A stretch of DNA of 22,428 nt. It comes from a virus. The stretch is taken from positions 1 through 22,428 of the IMG/VR virus record IMGVR_UViG_3300021440_000129; one strand, written 5' to 3'. The notes under the pieces were generated by a model, which searched no databases, was not told where the DNA came from, and saw only the letters and a program-made list of their open reading frames with translations. A program made the position numbers and the translations under genes. This document shows, piece by piece, positions 9,148-22,428 of the stretch; position 1 is the first letter of the stretch; every line of letters starts with the position of its first letter.

Positions 9148-9912
9148 ATGACCCTCGAACAACTGCTAAGTCTGCTCCGAGGGGCGATCCTCAATGATCG
9201 GACGAGCCGCGTATCCGGCTCGTCCGATTACCTTTGGACCGATGAAGAACTCGTCATTTATATGAATGAGGCTCAGCGTCGTTTCGCGACCCAGGGTCTC
9301 GTTCTGCGGGACGGCACCAGCCCCGAAGCGACGCGCATCACGCTCGTGGCTGGTCAAAGCAGCTATGACTTGCACGAGTCTGTGCTGGCCGTCCTGTCAG
9401 CTCGCGTCAGTAGTCAGGAGGTCGACCTGCAGCGCGTCGGGCACTCGGTGCTCAACGCGTACCGGCAGCCGACCGAGTCGTGGATCGACCCGTCCTCGCT
9501 GACGACAATGCCGCCGGGGGCACCGGTTGCGTTCTCGACTGACGAGACGCTGAGCCTCGATGACTACGACAGCCTCGGGCGTGCGGCACTGCGCATCCAC
9601 CCGGTACCGAGCGCTGAACTCGCCGGCACGATCATCCAGCTGCGCGTTGTCAGAAAACCGATCGAGCAGCTGCAGCTCTCCGACCTTCAGGCCTCCCCGG
9701 AAATCCCGGCGGACCACCATCTGGAGATGCTCGATTACGCTGCATACCTGGCTCTCCGGATCGTCGACGACGATGCTGGGTCGGTCAAGCGCGCGGCTGA
9801 CTTCAAGGCCACCTTCGAGGAAAACGTGACTGAGGCTCGAAAGTCGGCTATGCGCAAGCTGTTCGCCCCCATGGACTGGGGCTTCGGACGTGGTGGATAT
9901 AGCTGGAGTTGA
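9148..9912 (+). CDS. Head-tail adaptor-like protein (gp6/tail tubular A type)
   Basis: A 254-residue protein that most likely forms the adaptor ring between portal and tail. The N-terminal pattern, a helical LEQLLSLLRGAILN segment then DYLWTDEELVIYMNEAQRRFAT (about 27-47), is the typical opening of such adaptors: a D-E-E-L motif followed by an N-E-A-Q-R helix. The middle is strand-rich, and the C-terminal half has DHHLEMLDYAAYLALRI, as in T7 gp11-like and related connectors. A G-rich ribosome site (9141-9145) sits close to the start. It follows the head genes and precedes the ejection-type genes, the expected position. Confidence 0.7.
   Translation: MTLEQLLSLLRGAILNDRTSRVSGSSDYLWTDEELVIYMNEAQRRFATQGLVLRDGTSPEATRITLVAGQSSYDLHESVLAVLSARVSSQEVDLQRVGHSVLNAYRQPTESWIDPSSLTTMPPGAPVAFSTDETLSLDDYDSLGRAALRIHPVPSAELAGTIIQLRVVRKPIEQLQLSDLQASPEIPADHHLEMLDYAAYLALRIVDDDAGSVKRAADFKATFEENVTEARKSAMRKLFAPMDWGFGRGGYSWS
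9904..9908 (+). promoter_or_regulatory. Ribosome binding site that fixes the next start
   Basis: TGGAG lies eight bases before ATG 9917, overlapping the adaptor gene end. It argues against the upstream in-frame GTG at 9890, which lies inside the adaptor coding region. Confidence 0.6.
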
Positions 9913-18068: not shown

Positions 18069-19085
18069 ATGTCGATCAAACACGCCTTCTCAAACACGCA
18101 GGCTAACGCTACCGGCACAATCACAGCTTGGAACGGCTCGTCGACTGTATCGGTAGCGGCGAGCAATGTTGTGCGCCCGCAGGATTGGAACTCGGGACAC
18201 AACCTCGATTACAAGCTGGCCGGCAATACAGCAGTATCGTCGTCCATCTCAGGCACTGATATCTACTTCAAGGCCGCCGGGCAGATCACCCTCGCAGGCT
18301 CGACGGACACCAATGGCTCGTCGCTTGTGTTCTCAGGTGGCAACCTCAACAGTGTCTACCCTGTCGGGCCGCAGCCCCTTGCAACCTCATCGTTCGTCTC
18401 GGGCACCTCTGGCGCTACTGGCGGATCGACGCAGTTCACGGTCTCGGGATACCTGAGCCCGATCTACATCGATGCGCCCACCATCTACGATGAAGTCGAA
18501 ATGCTGATCTCCGGTCAGGCCACGGTAGCCGGAACCGGATCGGCATCGAACGGCTTCATTGTCGGGCTGTATTCAAACAACAACTCGACGCTCTCTCTGA
18601 TCACCTCATACCAGTTCTGCCATGTGATGAGCCAGAACAGCGCCACGGCGCAGACCCATTCGTGGTTCTTCGGAACGAACAGCGGAGCCAACTCATCGTC
18701 ACTGGGTGGAAACGTCTCTGCATCCTTCTCCAGCCTCGCCAATGTCCAGCTCTTTGATGGTGGTGGGACGGACGTTAAGACCCTGCCGCAAGGTACGCTC
18801 TATCAGGCCGTCATTCACACGGCCCGGACCAGCTCCAGCAACCTTGGTGGATATTCCTCAGCCATGTGCGTCTCGCAGTCGCAGACAGCCGGCGCGAGTT
18901 ACTTTGGAACGAACGTCTACAAGCGACCGCTGGGAGAAGAGCGTTTTCACGGTGTTTTCTCGACCACGCTGAACGCATCGAACAGCCACAACCTTTCGAT
19001 GCCGGCAGCCATATCTTCGTCGGCAGTCACGAATACTGGCGGATCGTCACAGGTTCGCATGCCCTTCGTTCAATACTACATCTAA
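18069..19085 (+). CDS. Tail fibre or receptor-binding-like protein
   Basis: A 338-residue protein rich in Ser, Thr, Gly and Asn, poor in charge, and predicted mostly strand. The N-terminus has VVRPQDWNSGHNLDYKLAGNTA, a pattern I recall at the virion-anchoring end of fibre-type proteins. Then come short strand repeats such as GTDIYFKAAGQITLAG and GSSLVFSGGNL. The C-terminal half is a larger strand-rich domain ending in VRMPFVQYYI. GAGGTG at 18058-18063 precedes ATG 18069. The lack of cysteine pairs or enzymatic motifs argues for a binding or structural role. A fibre or tail-appendage role is inferred from composition and position beside other tail genes. Confidence 0.75.
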   Translation: MSIKHAFSNTQANATGTITAWNGSSTVSVAASNVVRPQDWNSGHNLDYKLAGNTAVSSSISGTDIYFKAAGQITLAGSTDTNGSSLVFSGGNLNSVYPVGPQPLATSSFVSGTSGATGGSTQFTVSGYLSPIYIDAPTIYDEVEMLISGQATVAGTGSASNGFIVGLYSNNNSTLSLITSYQFCHVMSQNSATAQTHSWFFGTNSGANSSSLGGNVSASFSSLANVQLFDGGGTDVKTLPQGTLYQAVIHTARTSSSNLGGYSSAMCVSQSQTAGASYFGTNVYKRPLGEERFHGVFSTTLNASNSHNLSMPAAISSSAVTNTGGSSQVRMPFVQYYI

Positions 19086-19102
19086 CCCCAACAGGACGGT
19101 CC

Positions 19103-19825
19103 ATGACCAAACCCGAAATCGTTGTGCCCGGACTCGGACGGCACAACCTTGACCTTCAGGCATCAGCCTCGCGCATCCTCGAAGGTGCGACATGGAAGAA
19201 GCAGCGCATCATCGTCATGGTGCCCTCGGCCAATATGATCCCAGCCAAGGTCGCGTTGGCGCAGTGGAACCTGATCTTCCCGCCCAACCAAGCGGTGTTC
19301 AAGATGCTCTGCCTTGGAATGGAGGTTGGTGATGCCTACAGCGAGGCCATCAAGTTCGTGCTGGAGCACCCAGACCTCAAGGACTGGGAATACATCCTGA
19401 CCATGGAGCATGATAACATCCCTCCGCCCGACGGACTGGTGAAGCTCATCAAACGCATGGAGGACCACCCCGAGTACACCTGTGTTGGTGGGCTGTATTG
19501 GACGAAGGGTGAGGGCGGTGTACCTCAGATTTGGGGAGACCCCTCTGATCCGGTGCTGAACTTCCGTCCCCAGCCCCCAGTTCCCAACGAGCTGGTCGAG
19601 TGCTGCGGAACCGGCATGGGCTTCAATCTCTGGCGCGTGTCTACGTTCAAGGACGAGAAGCTGCGCCAGCCGTGGTTCAAGACCTTGAACGGTGCTGGGG
19701 GTGAAGGGGTAGGCACTCAAGACCTCTACTTCTGGGCTGATGCACGCAAGCATGGCTATCGCTGTGCGGTAGACTGCGATGTGCTGGTAGGGCACTACGA
19801 CGCTTGTGCGGACATCAGTTGGTGA
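19103..19825 (+). CDS. Glycosyltransferase-like protein (GT-A fold)
   Basis: A 240-residue protein from ATG 19103, with AGGA at 19093-19096; an upstream open frame to 18866 overlaps the fibre gene and lacks a ribosome site. The layout is that of a GT-A sugar transferase: a beta strand RIIVMVPS (35-42), then WEYILTMEHDNIPPPDG (95-111), where EHDN (102-105) stands in for the DxD metal/nucleotide-sugar motif, CVGGLYW (127-133), GTGMGFNLWR (169-178), and GTQDLYFWADARKHGYR (204-220) as acceptor-side acid motif, with His231 near the end. Its substrate cannot be read. It could modify a host surface glycan, the fibre, or phage DNA. The HNH and methyltransferase genes follow. Confidence in the fold is good; the specific reaction is unknown. 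Confidence 0.8.
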   Translation: MTKPEIVVPGLGRHNLDLQASASRILEGATWKKQRIIVMVPSANMIPAKVALAQWNLIFPPNQAVFKMLCLGMEVGDAYSEAIKFVLEHPDLKDWEYILTMEHDNIPPPDGLVKLIKRMEDHPEYTCVGGLYWTKGEGGVPQIWGDPSDPVLNFRPQPPVPNELVECCGTGMGFNLWRVSTFKDEKLRQPWFKTLNGAGGEGVGTQDLYFWADARKHGYRCAVDCDVLVGHYDACADISW

Positions 19826-19848
19826 GTATGGTAGTGCCCTACCAACTG
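19785..19848 (+). promoter_or_regulatory. Two mutually exclusive hairpins at GT-HNH junction
   Basis: Hairpin A pairs 19785-19798 with 19831-19844 (14 perfect pairs, 32-base loop). Hairpin B pairs CAGTTGGT (19816-19823) with ACCAACTG (19841-19848), 17-base loop. Both use 19841-19844, so they exclude each other. The set spans the GT stop codon (19823-19825), and hairpin B ends directly before the HNH ribosome site (AAAGGAG, 19849-19855). It could attenuate or switch expression of the HNH gene. The pairing is seen; regulation is inferred. Confidence 0.6.
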
Positions 19849-19866
19849 AAAGGAGCGCCGCGCGTG

Positions 19867-20316
19867 ATGCTGACGTCTGCCGAGAAGAGCGCCCGGTACC
19901 GAGCCAAAAATGTGCAAGCATACCGCGAGCGCAAGTCCGCCCTCGCACGAACCGACGAACACAAAGCGGTTCGACGCGAGTATATGCGCAAGTGGCGCGA
20001 AGAGAACCGCGAGCGACATAACGAGCTGGCGCGGCAGTCGCATCGTCGGAACGCGCACAAGCACGTGGAGCGCAACGCGGATTACCACCTGCGAGCGAAG
20101 TACGGGATCTCAAGGCAAGACAAAGCTGACATGGTCGCAGCGCAGAACGGTTTGTGTTTGATCTGCGCAGAGCCCTTTTCTAGCTCTCGCAGTACCCACG
20201 TGGATCACTGCCACAGGACTGGGTGCGTTCGCGGCATCCTTTGCCACCGCTGCAACACGAAGCTAGGCTGGCTCGAAACGCACGAAGCCGCCATAACTCA
20301 ATATCTTGGTAGGTAG
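19867..20316 (+). CDS. HNH endonuclease, endonuclease VII-like (free-standing)
   Basis: A 149-residue DNA-cutting protein. The N-terminal 60 residues are highly basic and helical (RYRAKN, RREYMRKWREENRERH), a likely DNA-binding arm. The catalytic domain has a first zinc knuckle (C97-x2-C100), HVDHCHRTG (111-119) with Asp113-His114 as HNH core, a second knuckle (C126-x2-C129), and NTKLG after it (130-134). This order matches the recombination endonuclease VII family. GTG 19864 is an equally possible start: AAAGGAG (19849-19855) is eight bases from it and eleven from ATG 19867. It lies between two unrelated enzyme genes, 41 bases after the GT stop and three before the methyltransferase, the pattern of a mobile homing endonuclease. 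A role in resolving packaging DNA is the alternative. Confidence 0.92.
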   Translation: MLTSAEKSARYRAKNVQAYRERKSALARTDEHKAVRREYMRKWREENRERHNELARQSHRRNAHKHVERNADYHLRAKYGISRQDKADMVAAQNGLCLICAEPFSSSRSTHVDHCHRTGCVRGILCHRCNTKLGWLETHEAAITQYLGR

Positions 20317-20319
20317 ATA

Positions 20320-20847
20320 ATGCGAATTGACATCGGCTGCGGCCCGAACAAAAAAGAAGGTTTCACTGGCATCGACGTCGCCAAGTTTCCTGGTGTTGAC
20401 GTTGTCTGTGCGGTCGGACGAGACCCTCTGCCATTTGCAGACGAGTCTGTCGAAGAGGTTCACGCCTCGCACTTCCTGGAGCACCTGACTGCTAACGAAC
20501 GCATGTTCTTCATGAACGATCTGTACCGGGTCATGAAGCCAGGTGCGAAGGCAGCGATCATTGTGCCGCATTGGAACAGCAACCGCGCATATGGTGATAT
20601 GACACACCAGTGGCCTCCGGTCAGTGAGATGTTCTTCTATTACCTGAAGCGCGAGTGGCGGGACGCAAACGCACCTCACTGCGACAAGCAGTACAATCCG
20701 GATGGACTTGACTGCGATTTCGAGGCTACATGGGGCTATTCGCTGCATCCCGGACTGCATACGCGCAATCAGGAATTTCAGCAGTTCGCGATGGCATGGT
20801 ACAAGGAAGCGGTGCAGGACATGCACGCGACACTGACTAAGAGGTAG
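20320..20847 (+). CDS. SAM-dependent methyltransferase-like protein (type 11)
   Basis: A 175-residue protein with a Rossmann-type SAM-binding core. Motif I is IDIGCGPN (3-10); Asp19 in GIDV (17-20) is the acidic residue expected to bind the SAM ribose; LPFADESVEEVHASHFLEHL (37-56) is the typical post-motif block ending LEHL, and LYRVMKPGAKAAIIVPHW (68-85) is the strand after the GG/PG turn. It is short for a methyltransferase, so it may lack a separate substrate domain. The C-terminal half carries DGLDCDFEATWGYSLHPG, perhaps the acceptor side. AGGT at 20311-20314 lies five bases before ATG 20320, inside the HNH gene end. The substrate is unknown. It may work with the glycosyltransferase 5', or modify the tail or DNA. 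Confidence 0.88.
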   Translation: MRIDIGCGPNKKEGFTGIDVAKFPGVDVVCAVGRDPLPFADESVEEVHASHFLEHLTANERMFFMNDLYRVMKPGAKAAIIVPHWNSNRAYGDMTHQWPPVSEMFFYYLKREWRDANAPHCDKQYNPDGLDCDFEATWGYSLHPGLHTRNQEFQQFAMAWYKEAVQDMHATLTKR

Positions 20848-20854
20848 TTCCGCT

Positions 20855-22428
20855 ATGCAGCCGGGCGTGTTTCAACCAGATGCGTTTGCCCCGCCCGGCT
20901 CAGCAGCATCCGGCTCCTCGACCGTAACCTGGAGCACGACGAACAAGGGCGCGTCGATCGTCCTCACCAATGGCGATCTGACAGCGACTACCAGTGCGAG
21001 CGCCACAGACCAGGTCGTCCGTGCATCGGCGCAGCCGGCCACGACCAAGTCGTACATGGAGTTCACCATCAACTCCAACGGCACTCCGTGGGGTGGGTTC
21101 GGCTTCTGCGACGAAGGCTTCGACACAACCTCATCGACCCCGTTCAGCACGACGTCACGCACCAATTCACGCAGCGATGGCGGTGGCACATATGATGACG
21201 GCGGATTTGTAGGGAGCTCACCGTCGCCAGTAGCCGGCGATATTGTGATGCTGGCCTACGACGAGACGCTTGAGAAATACTACATCGGCCTCAACGGTAC
21301 GTGGCTGGACTCAGGCAACCCCAGCTCGAACCTCAATGGCATGTCGGTGACGTTCGGCGGTACCGAGCGATATGTCTATGCCTTCTTCCGCGAGACCAAC
21401 CAGCAGTGGACGGCGAACTTCGGCGCGACCGCGTTTACCTACTCCATCCCTACCGGCTTCTCTGCCTACGGCGCGAGCTCGGGATCGTCAGCAGCTGTCG
21501 GCATGGCGACCGAGACCGACACTGCGCTGCAGCTTGGCGGGGCCCGGCCCGCTGGTATCGCCATTGAGGCTGACACTGCGCTCCCTCTCGGCTCCGCACG
21601 CCCTGCCGGCACCGCCACCGAGACCGACACTGCGCTGCAGCTTGGCGGGGCCCGGCCCGCTGGTATCGCCACTGAGGCTGACACTGCGCTCCCTCTCGGC
21701 TCCGCGCGCCCGGCAGGCCTCACGACTGAGACAGATACAGCTCTCGCGCTCAGCGCGGTACAGGTCAGAGCAGTAGGGCTGGCGACCGAGGCCGACACAG
21801 CTCTCACGCTTAGCGCGGTACAGGTTAGGTCAGCCGGGCTCTCCATTGAGACCGACACAGCGCTTGCACTCTCAGCGTCGCTGACTGCAGGTCTGGCAAC
21901 TGAAGCAGACACAGCGTTCGCGCGCAGTGCGGTTCAGATCAGAGCGACCGGAATCTCCACGGAGACCGGCACGGCGCTGGCGCTCAGTGCGGTTCAGATC
22001 AAAGCCGTTGGCCTTTCCACAGAGTCCGACACAGCTCTCGCGCTTAGTGCGGTGCAGGCCCGCGCAACCGGAGTAGCCACAGAGTCCGACACGGCGTCAG
22101 CGCTCAGTGTGGTGCAGATTAAAGCCGTCGGCACCTCGACCGAGACCGACGCAGCGCTGCAGCTTGGTGCCGCACGACCCACAGGTAACGCTGTCGAGTC
22201 CGACACAGCTCTCGCGCTCAGCGCGGTGCAGACCAGAGCAGCCGGGCTCTCCACTGAAGCCGACACTGCACTGTCGCTGTCGTCGGTGCAGATCAGGGCT
22301 GTCGGCCTTGTAGCTGAGTCCGATACAGCTCTCGCGCTTAGCGCGGTGCAAGTCCGTGCAGCCGGCCTCGCAACTGAGGCTGACACAGCTCTCGCTCTGA
22401 GCGCGGTGCAGATCAGGGCCGGCGGACT
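20855..22428 (+). CDS. Tail fibre-like protein with SPRY-type domain and repeats (partial, open at window end)
   Basis: A partial gene, at least 524 residues, with no stop before the window edge. GAGG at 20841-20844 precedes ATG 20855. Residues about 20-205 resemble a SPRY/concanavalin-A-like lectin domain: GDIVMLAYD (128-136), YYIGLNGTW then a FGG, and the characteristic ending NFGATAF (188-194) followed by TYSIPTGFSAYG. From residue 216 comes a tandem array of 16 complete units of 18 or 20 residues, consensus G-L-A-T-E-x-D-T-A-L-A-L-S-A-V-Q-I-R-A-x, with some units ending in G-A-R-P-A. The tract should form an elongated repeat stalk or beta structure. Likely a host-binding appendage; the binding target is not visible. 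The gene continues beyond the window. Confidence 0.8.
   Translation, partial: MQPGVFQPDAFAPPGSAASGSSTVTWSTTNKGASIVLTNGDLTATTSASATDQVVRASAQPATTKSYMEFTINSNGTPWGGFGFCDEGFDTTSSTPFSTTSRTNSRSDGGGTYDDGGFVGSSPSPVAGDIVMLAYDETLEKYYIGLNGTWLDSGNPSSNLNGMSVTFGGTERYVYAFFRETNQQWTANFGATAFTYSIPTGFSAYGASSGSSAAVGMATETDTALQLGGARPAGIAIEADTALPLGSARPAGTATETDTALQLGGARPAGIATEADTALPLGSARPAGLTTETDTALALSAVQVRAVGLATEADTALTLSAVQVRSAGLSIETDTALALSASLTAGLATEADTAFARSAVQIRATGISTETGTALALSAVQIKAVGLSTESDTALALSAVQARATGVATESDTASALSVVQIKAVGTSTETDAALQLGAARPTGNAVESDTALALSAVQTRAAGLSTEADTALSLSSVQIRAVGLVAESDTALALSAVQVRAAGLATEADTALALSAVQIRAGG
21500..22423 (+). repeat. Sixteen 54/60-bp in-frame tandem repeats
   Basis: Units begin with a glycine codon. 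Six are 54 bases and ten are 60 bases; all keep the frame. The first four 54-base units form two near-identical 108-base pairs (21512-21619 and 21620-21727), so the array grew by recent doubling. The final base group (22424-22428) starts a 17th unit. Confidence 0.9.

Follow-up and report, generated by a model that had tools for sequence, protein, structure and literature searches.

The repeats at the GT-HNH junction

We analysed a pair of overlapping inverted repeats, here called I1 and I8, at the junction between a gene named GT in the initial annotation and an HNH nuclease gene of a bacterial virus. The window, i.e., the whole 22.4 kb stretch that was analysed, comprises positions 1-22,428 of IMG/VR virus record IMGVR_UViG_3300021440_000129, and GT, the HNH gene and a methyltransferase gene lie near its 3' end in that order. 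The features of the junction are:

19103-19825, + strand: GT, the upstream gene; its stop TGA is at 19823-19825 and its last codons form the left arms of I1 and I8
19785-19798, + strand: left arm of I1, codons L-V-G-H-Y of GT, a motif conserved in GT relatives
19815-19823, + strand: left arm of I8, the last GT codons into the stop
19828-20316, + strand: HNH nuclease of the Endonuclease VII (Endo VII) family (PF02945, E 1.3e-19; phrog_2914, E 2.4e-30)
19828-19830, + strand: possible HNH start ATG, in frame, two bases past the GT stop and in the loop of either hairpin
19831-19844, + strand: right arm of I1, HNH leader or N-terminal codons
19841-19849, + strand: right arm of I8, overlapping I1 at 19841-19844 and abutting the next feature
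19850-19855, + strand: Shine-Dalgarno (SD)-like AAGGAG, eight bases 5' of GTG 19864
19864-19869, + strand: SD-led HNH start codons GTG ATG, near which family members begin according to the phrog_2914 profile
20320-20847, + strand: methyltransferase (PF08241; phrog_6636), directly after GT in most relatives

A repeat search of the window bore out most of the geometry described in the initial annotation, and the paired repeats and their overlap are real. I1 is a perfect 14-bp inverted repeat (19785-19798/19831-19844, 100% match) with a 32 nt spacer. The second repeat, reported as 8 bp, is also present but measures 9 bp (19815-19823/19841-19849, 100% match), with a 17 nt spacer. The right arms share the four bases 19841-19844, as had been claimed, and the repeats do span the GT stop, as the TGA lies inside the I1 loop and its first base is the final base of the I8 left arm. 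The last base of I8, 19849, immediately precedes the SD at 19850, so that one hairpin indeed finishes directly 5' of the HNH ribosome site. Taken as a whole, the right side (19 nt, 19831-19849) can be read as two nearby upstream pieces, reverse-complemented and joined at TGGT. Both arms of I1 contain the rare valine codon GTA, which makes up 4% of the Val codons of this phage.

I1 exceeds what is expected by chance. It is the sole and longest perfect inverted repeat of at least 14 bp with a loop of at most 100 across the window, and dinucleotide shuffles of the window had a mean of 0.02 repeats of this length, with one such repeat in 2 of 100 shuffles. When the GT tail and the HNH head were recoded synonymously with the codon usage of this phage, none of 3000 recodings reached 14 bp (the maximum was 11), and shuffling of the leader gave no repeat above 12 bp in 3000 trials. 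In a scan of 1117 sliding 106-nt segments, the second and third strongest folding z-scores are those of the segments at 19741 (-4.67) and 19761 (-4.56), after a hairpin at 9.2 kb. The segment 19775-19880 has a z-score of -3.13 in one run and -2.81 in the sliding scan. The minimum free energy (MFE) of the junction was matched by 19 of 1000 synonymous recodings in the window, and by 15 of 1000 in L042, the contig with the closest relative of the junction.

Predicted folding

The initial annotation proposed that the two hairpins compete, and the folding model predicts the same. In free RNA of the window I1 is present at 0.99 and I8 is absent, while a ribosome over the I1 left arm lets I8 form at 0.98. 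A ribosome covering 19808-19838 at the GT stop is predicted to leave neither hairpin, which fits the further proposal that ribosomes finishing GT would disturb both; if the footprint is narrowed to 19811-19835, I1 persists in part, at 0.63. The HNH start codons are about 0.2 unpaired in all ribosome states of the model.

Relatives of the junction

GT relatives were taken from the best 80 of 222 IMG/VR loci and are 64-77% identical. A first repeat scan of these 80 GT loci was centred on the point where the tblastn match ended, and this point is 5' of the stop in some loci. The recount used 88 unique GT junctions re-anchored at the stop, window included, after reverse-strand hits, matches short of residue 228, duplicates and short ends were dropped. 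A methyltransferase-like motif is found within 150 nt past the GT stop in 62 of the 88 junctions, and judged by this gene order the HNH gene is therefore an optional insert between GT and the methyltransferase. A repeat of at least 9 bp occurs among the 88 only in the window (14 bp), and 8 bp is reached in two junctions, one of them L042.

An Endo VII-type HNH gene follows GT in four cases seen, i.e., the window, L042 (HNH about 57-58% identical) and the distant L039 and L153. Homologs of the HNH gene were searched for with the window HNH (7 loci), with a three-sequence alignment (best 80 of 490) and with a two-sequence alignment (14 loci in viral contigs, 1 in genomes). The sole close homolog at the junction, among the best 80 of 490 in the case of the three-sequence search, was on the L042 contig, which also appears as L081, L090, L250 and L275. 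The exact 19-nt right side had no match in viral contigs, in a search that may omit records very close to the window. The stop/start/leader pattern matched 17 stretches in viral contigs, and only L275, from the same contig as L042, encodes GT or HNH. With its catalytic domain and its optional insertion between conserved neighbours, the window HNH has the features of a candidate free-standing Endo VII-type homing endonuclease.

In a separate observation, resting on the motif test only, 26 of the 88 junctions (e.g., L099, L107, L117, L130 and L128) have no methyltransferase-like motif within 150 nt past the GT stop, so that the spot between GT and the methyltransferase may often receive inserts.

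L042 has no 14-bp repeat I1. Its GT end CUUUGGUAG is predicted to pair with CUACCAAGG, reaching into the HNH SD. In free RNA the predicted unpaired fraction of this SD is 0.02, a value that rises to 0.54 when a ribosome occupies the stop region and to 0.82 when it sits just before the stop. The contig has an in-frame ATG one base past the GT stop, and AAGGA six bases 5' of an in-frame ATG. By this model, L042 would display the arrangement imagined in the initial annotation more cleanly than the window does, since a terminating ribosome would open the SD hairpin. When the arms of the window and L042 are compared, a leader alignment anchored at TACCAA gives two-sided changes beside the GT Trp codon, whereas an alignment anchored at ACCAACT or made with MAFFT does not. 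With only two homologs and an ambiguous alignment, no claim of covariation is possible.

Endo VII-type HNH starts elsewhere

A wider survey covered 97 Endo VII-type HNH starts, after removal of open reading frames cut by the locus end or lacking a start codon, regions shorter than 100 nt, and duplicates. Starts were chosen by an SD rule; the 185 control starts were required to have an SD of 5 or more, whereas the HNH cases were not. Perfect repeats of at least 9 bp were found at 12.4% of the HNH starts and 3.2% of the controls, and the mean folding z was -0.97 and -0.24, respectively (Mann-Whitney p 8e-5 for repeat length and 2.4e-4 for z, with statistics that ignore kinship). In the subset with an SD of 5 or more (27 HNH starts against the 185 controls), the repeats were present at 14.8% versus 3.2%, and SD accessibility was 0.37 versus 0.47 (one-sided p 0.047). 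The SD of the window is 0.79 unpaired in the 100-nt piece used for this survey. The hint of folded starts across Endo VII-type nuclease genes would make a role of such structures in HNH translation testable at scale.

Three Endo VII-type HNH genes at other loci (L209, L183 and L234) have start regions with perfect repeats of 10-12 bp near the SD or the start codon.

Proposed control of HNH translation

The best explanation, which we hold tentatively and at a little less than even confidence, is that RNA structure limits HNH translation and couples it to GT, akin to the leader hairpins of T4-type homing endonucleases. In free mRNA, I1 would pair the LVGHY codons of GT with the HNH leader, with the GT stop and ATG 19828 in the loop. 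A ribosome on the LVGHY codons would open I1 and let the shorter I8 form against the SD, and a ribosome at the GT stop would break both. HNH synthesis would thus be low unless GT is being translated, and HNH translation would begin either through reinitiation or through binding of a 30S subunit to AAGGAG right after ribosomes terminate at GT. If HNH starts at ATG 19828, the effect would fall on reinitiation within the hairpin loop. The formation of these structures in the cell, their action on translation and its direction are what we infer here. We count in favour of such coupling the failure of all 3000 recodings to reach the length of I1, the rare GTA codon in both of its arms, the low MFE of the junction in both the window and L042, the mutually exclusive hairpins, the predicted opening of the L042 SD, the 1-2 nt from stop to ATG, the stronger folding of Endo VII-type HNH starts in the survey and the precedents described next.

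The proposed control would be a variation on one already known from other phage nuclease genes. Homing endonucleases in T4-type phages are kept scarce, partly by hairpins over the ribosome site, and such hairpins are described over the ribosome binding sites (RBS) of I-TevI, segB and Aeh1 mobE (PMC2988022). As in I-TevI, I-TevII, I-TevIII, T4 segB and Aeh1 mobE, the nuclease gene of the window lies behind another gene, has a consensus SD at a distance of about 8 nt from its start codon, and carries a stable RNA structure where it begins. L042 shares with the RBS-hairpin genes that the SD itself is paired. In the window, unlike in those genes, the SD is not sequestered, and it is codons of the upstream gene that supply the left arms. 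The RBS-hairpin genes also have a late promoter positioned such that late transcripts omit the 5' arm, whereas a sigma-70 scan gave no promoter between the arms of the window. A further parallel is seg43(25) of Aeromonas phage 25, where a hairpin abuts the RBS without covering it and its regulatory role is given as undetermined (PMC2988022). I8 is likewise a stable hairpin immediately 5' of an uncovered RBS, but unlike in seg43(25) a second, longer hairpin (I1) competes with it.

The arrangement also resembles the RNA-unfolding model of translational coupling (PMC12548453). As in phage f1 VII-IX and MS2 coat-lysis, stop and start are close and the structure involves codons of the upstream gene. 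The window differs from these in having two mutually exclusive hairpins, and coupling is here only predicted. A parallel for the nuclease itself is F-CphI, a homing endonuclease with the Endo VII catalytic motif whose target and cutting are demonstrated (PMC6083498). Both have an Endo VII-type catalytic domain and a gene beside a conserved phage gene, while the window HNH, unlike F-CphI, is known from sequence alone. If HNH translation is coupled in this way, Endo VII-type inserts would borrow codons of the neighbouring gene as one arm, and expression of the insert would read out translation of its neighbour.

Several results weigh against structure-linked control of the HNH gene. The SD of the window is predicted to be 0.47 unpaired in free RNA and 0.45 with a ribosome at the stop, rising to 0.71 when the I1 left arm is held. 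Since the ribosome at the stop barely moves SD accessibility, no clean on/off switch is predicted. The translation-linked switch of the initial annotation finds a counterpart in the stop/SD hairpin of L042, which a terminating ribosome could open, but not in the window, where neither hairpin pairs the SD; overall, that interpretation is partly supported. The 14-bp repeat is missing from all 87 other GT junctions, including that of the closest HNH homolog, and no such hairpin is seen at the distant HNH inserts L039 and L153; at the L039 junction, 933 of 1000 recodings have an MFE as low, i.e., it folds less than they do. I8 by itself is unremarkable, as a best repeat of exactly 9 bp occurs in 282 of 3000 recodings, i.e., in about one in ten, and the short stop-to-leader piece of the window is also ordinary by itself (150 of 1000 recodings as low). 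The survey is confounded by upstream terminators, uncertain starts and the differing SD selection of cases and controls.

Finally, the HNH gene has three candidate starts, ATG 19828, GTG 19864 and ATG 19867. The distance from the GT stop is 2 nt to ATG 19828 and 38 nt to GTG 19864. The SD and the family profile, in which phrog_2914 position 8 aligns with residue 17 counted from ATG 19828, favour a start at 19864/19867. For ATG 19828 speaks the presence of an in-frame ATG just past the GT stop in both the window and L042.

Alternative explanations

Among other origins of the repeats, the most probable is a neutral product of replication, in which the leader received a reversed copy of GT sequence through a snap-back or template switch; the result may fold but would have no role. 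Two upstream pieces account for the whole right side 19831-19849, the repeat is unique to this phage among the 88 junctions, and its perfect identity fits a recent event. However, the homologous leader of L042 agrees with much of the right side, so that few changes would suffice in place of wholesale copying, and L042 independently has a strong start structure. We regard a neutral copy as rather unlikely.

Less probable still is a role as a DNA operator: the leader would carry, in inverted form, the site in GT that the nuclease itself targets (the V-G-H-Y codons), and the RNA hairpin would be a by-product. Read on its opposite strand, the leader spells out V-G-H-Y in both the window and L042, the two using different synonymous codons, and 12-mers coding for V-G-H-Y occur only twice in the window, in GT and in the leader. 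When three bases of the window 12-mer are changed at a time, the V-G-H-Y coding persists in only 24 of 5940 cases, and the opposite strand of 160 loci (997,538 bases) holds four such 12-mers, one being that of L042. The L042 leader matches its own GT at 9 of 12 bases over the V-G-H-Y 12-mer. There is also a precedent, as operator and homing site of I-TevI agree at 15/20 positions (PMC2988022). The V-G-H-Y reading on the opposite strand could be what remains of an old inverted copy, or it could be an operator similar to the nuclease target as in I-TevI. On the other hand, the GT motif is only a putative homing site of this nuclease, an exact copy next to an unaltered GT site would expose the phage to cutting by its own nuclease, and the leaders of L039 and L153 are without the V-G-H-Y motif. 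A sigma-70 scan, whose consensus may not match the promoters of this phage, gave a single sigma-70-like site at 19212-19239 and none at the HNH leader or between the hairpin arms; an autorepressor operator of the I-TevI type overlaps the promoter. Furthermore, the V-G-H-Y test was devised after the data had been seen and rests on two sequences. We give little credence to a combination of the two ideas, in which one inverted V-G-H-Y copy would act on the nuclease as a DNA decoy or operator and would also form the RNA hairpin arm that ties nuclease translation to GT.

It is similarly improbable that the repeat is a side effect of coding, with HNH starting at ATG 19828, both arms being codons and their match arising by chance. 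The in-frame ATG 1-2 nt past the GT stop and the open frame in both the window and L042 are compatible with this, but synonymous recoding of both stretches gave no repeat above 11 bp in 3000.

Cutting of a cruciform by an Endo VII-type protein was set aside, as the 32-nt spacer makes cruciform extrusion unlikely. An intrinsic terminator (a G+C-rich stem followed by a T run) was ruled out, with none found in 19000-20400, as was a known Rfam RNA family, with no match at gathering score across the whole window.

Other features of the window

By PHROGs, the window contains terminase, head-tail adaptor and major head genes. For GT, no Pfam family was matched and the comparison with PHROGs gave a weak match to phrog_1574, of unknown function, while a protein 62.6% identical to it is annotated 'has synthase' in three phage records.

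The strongest folding segment of the record (z -5.22 at 9201) lies inside the structural gene 9148-9912 and contains a perfect 13-bp inverted repeat with a 6-nt loop at 9197-9228. An exact 18-base inverted match links 19889-19906 in the HNH gene with 1713-1730, in a gene 18 kb upstream. At the record end, both strands of 21372-22386 have long open frames that encode repeated peptide units, which suggests a repetitive tail or fibre-like region.
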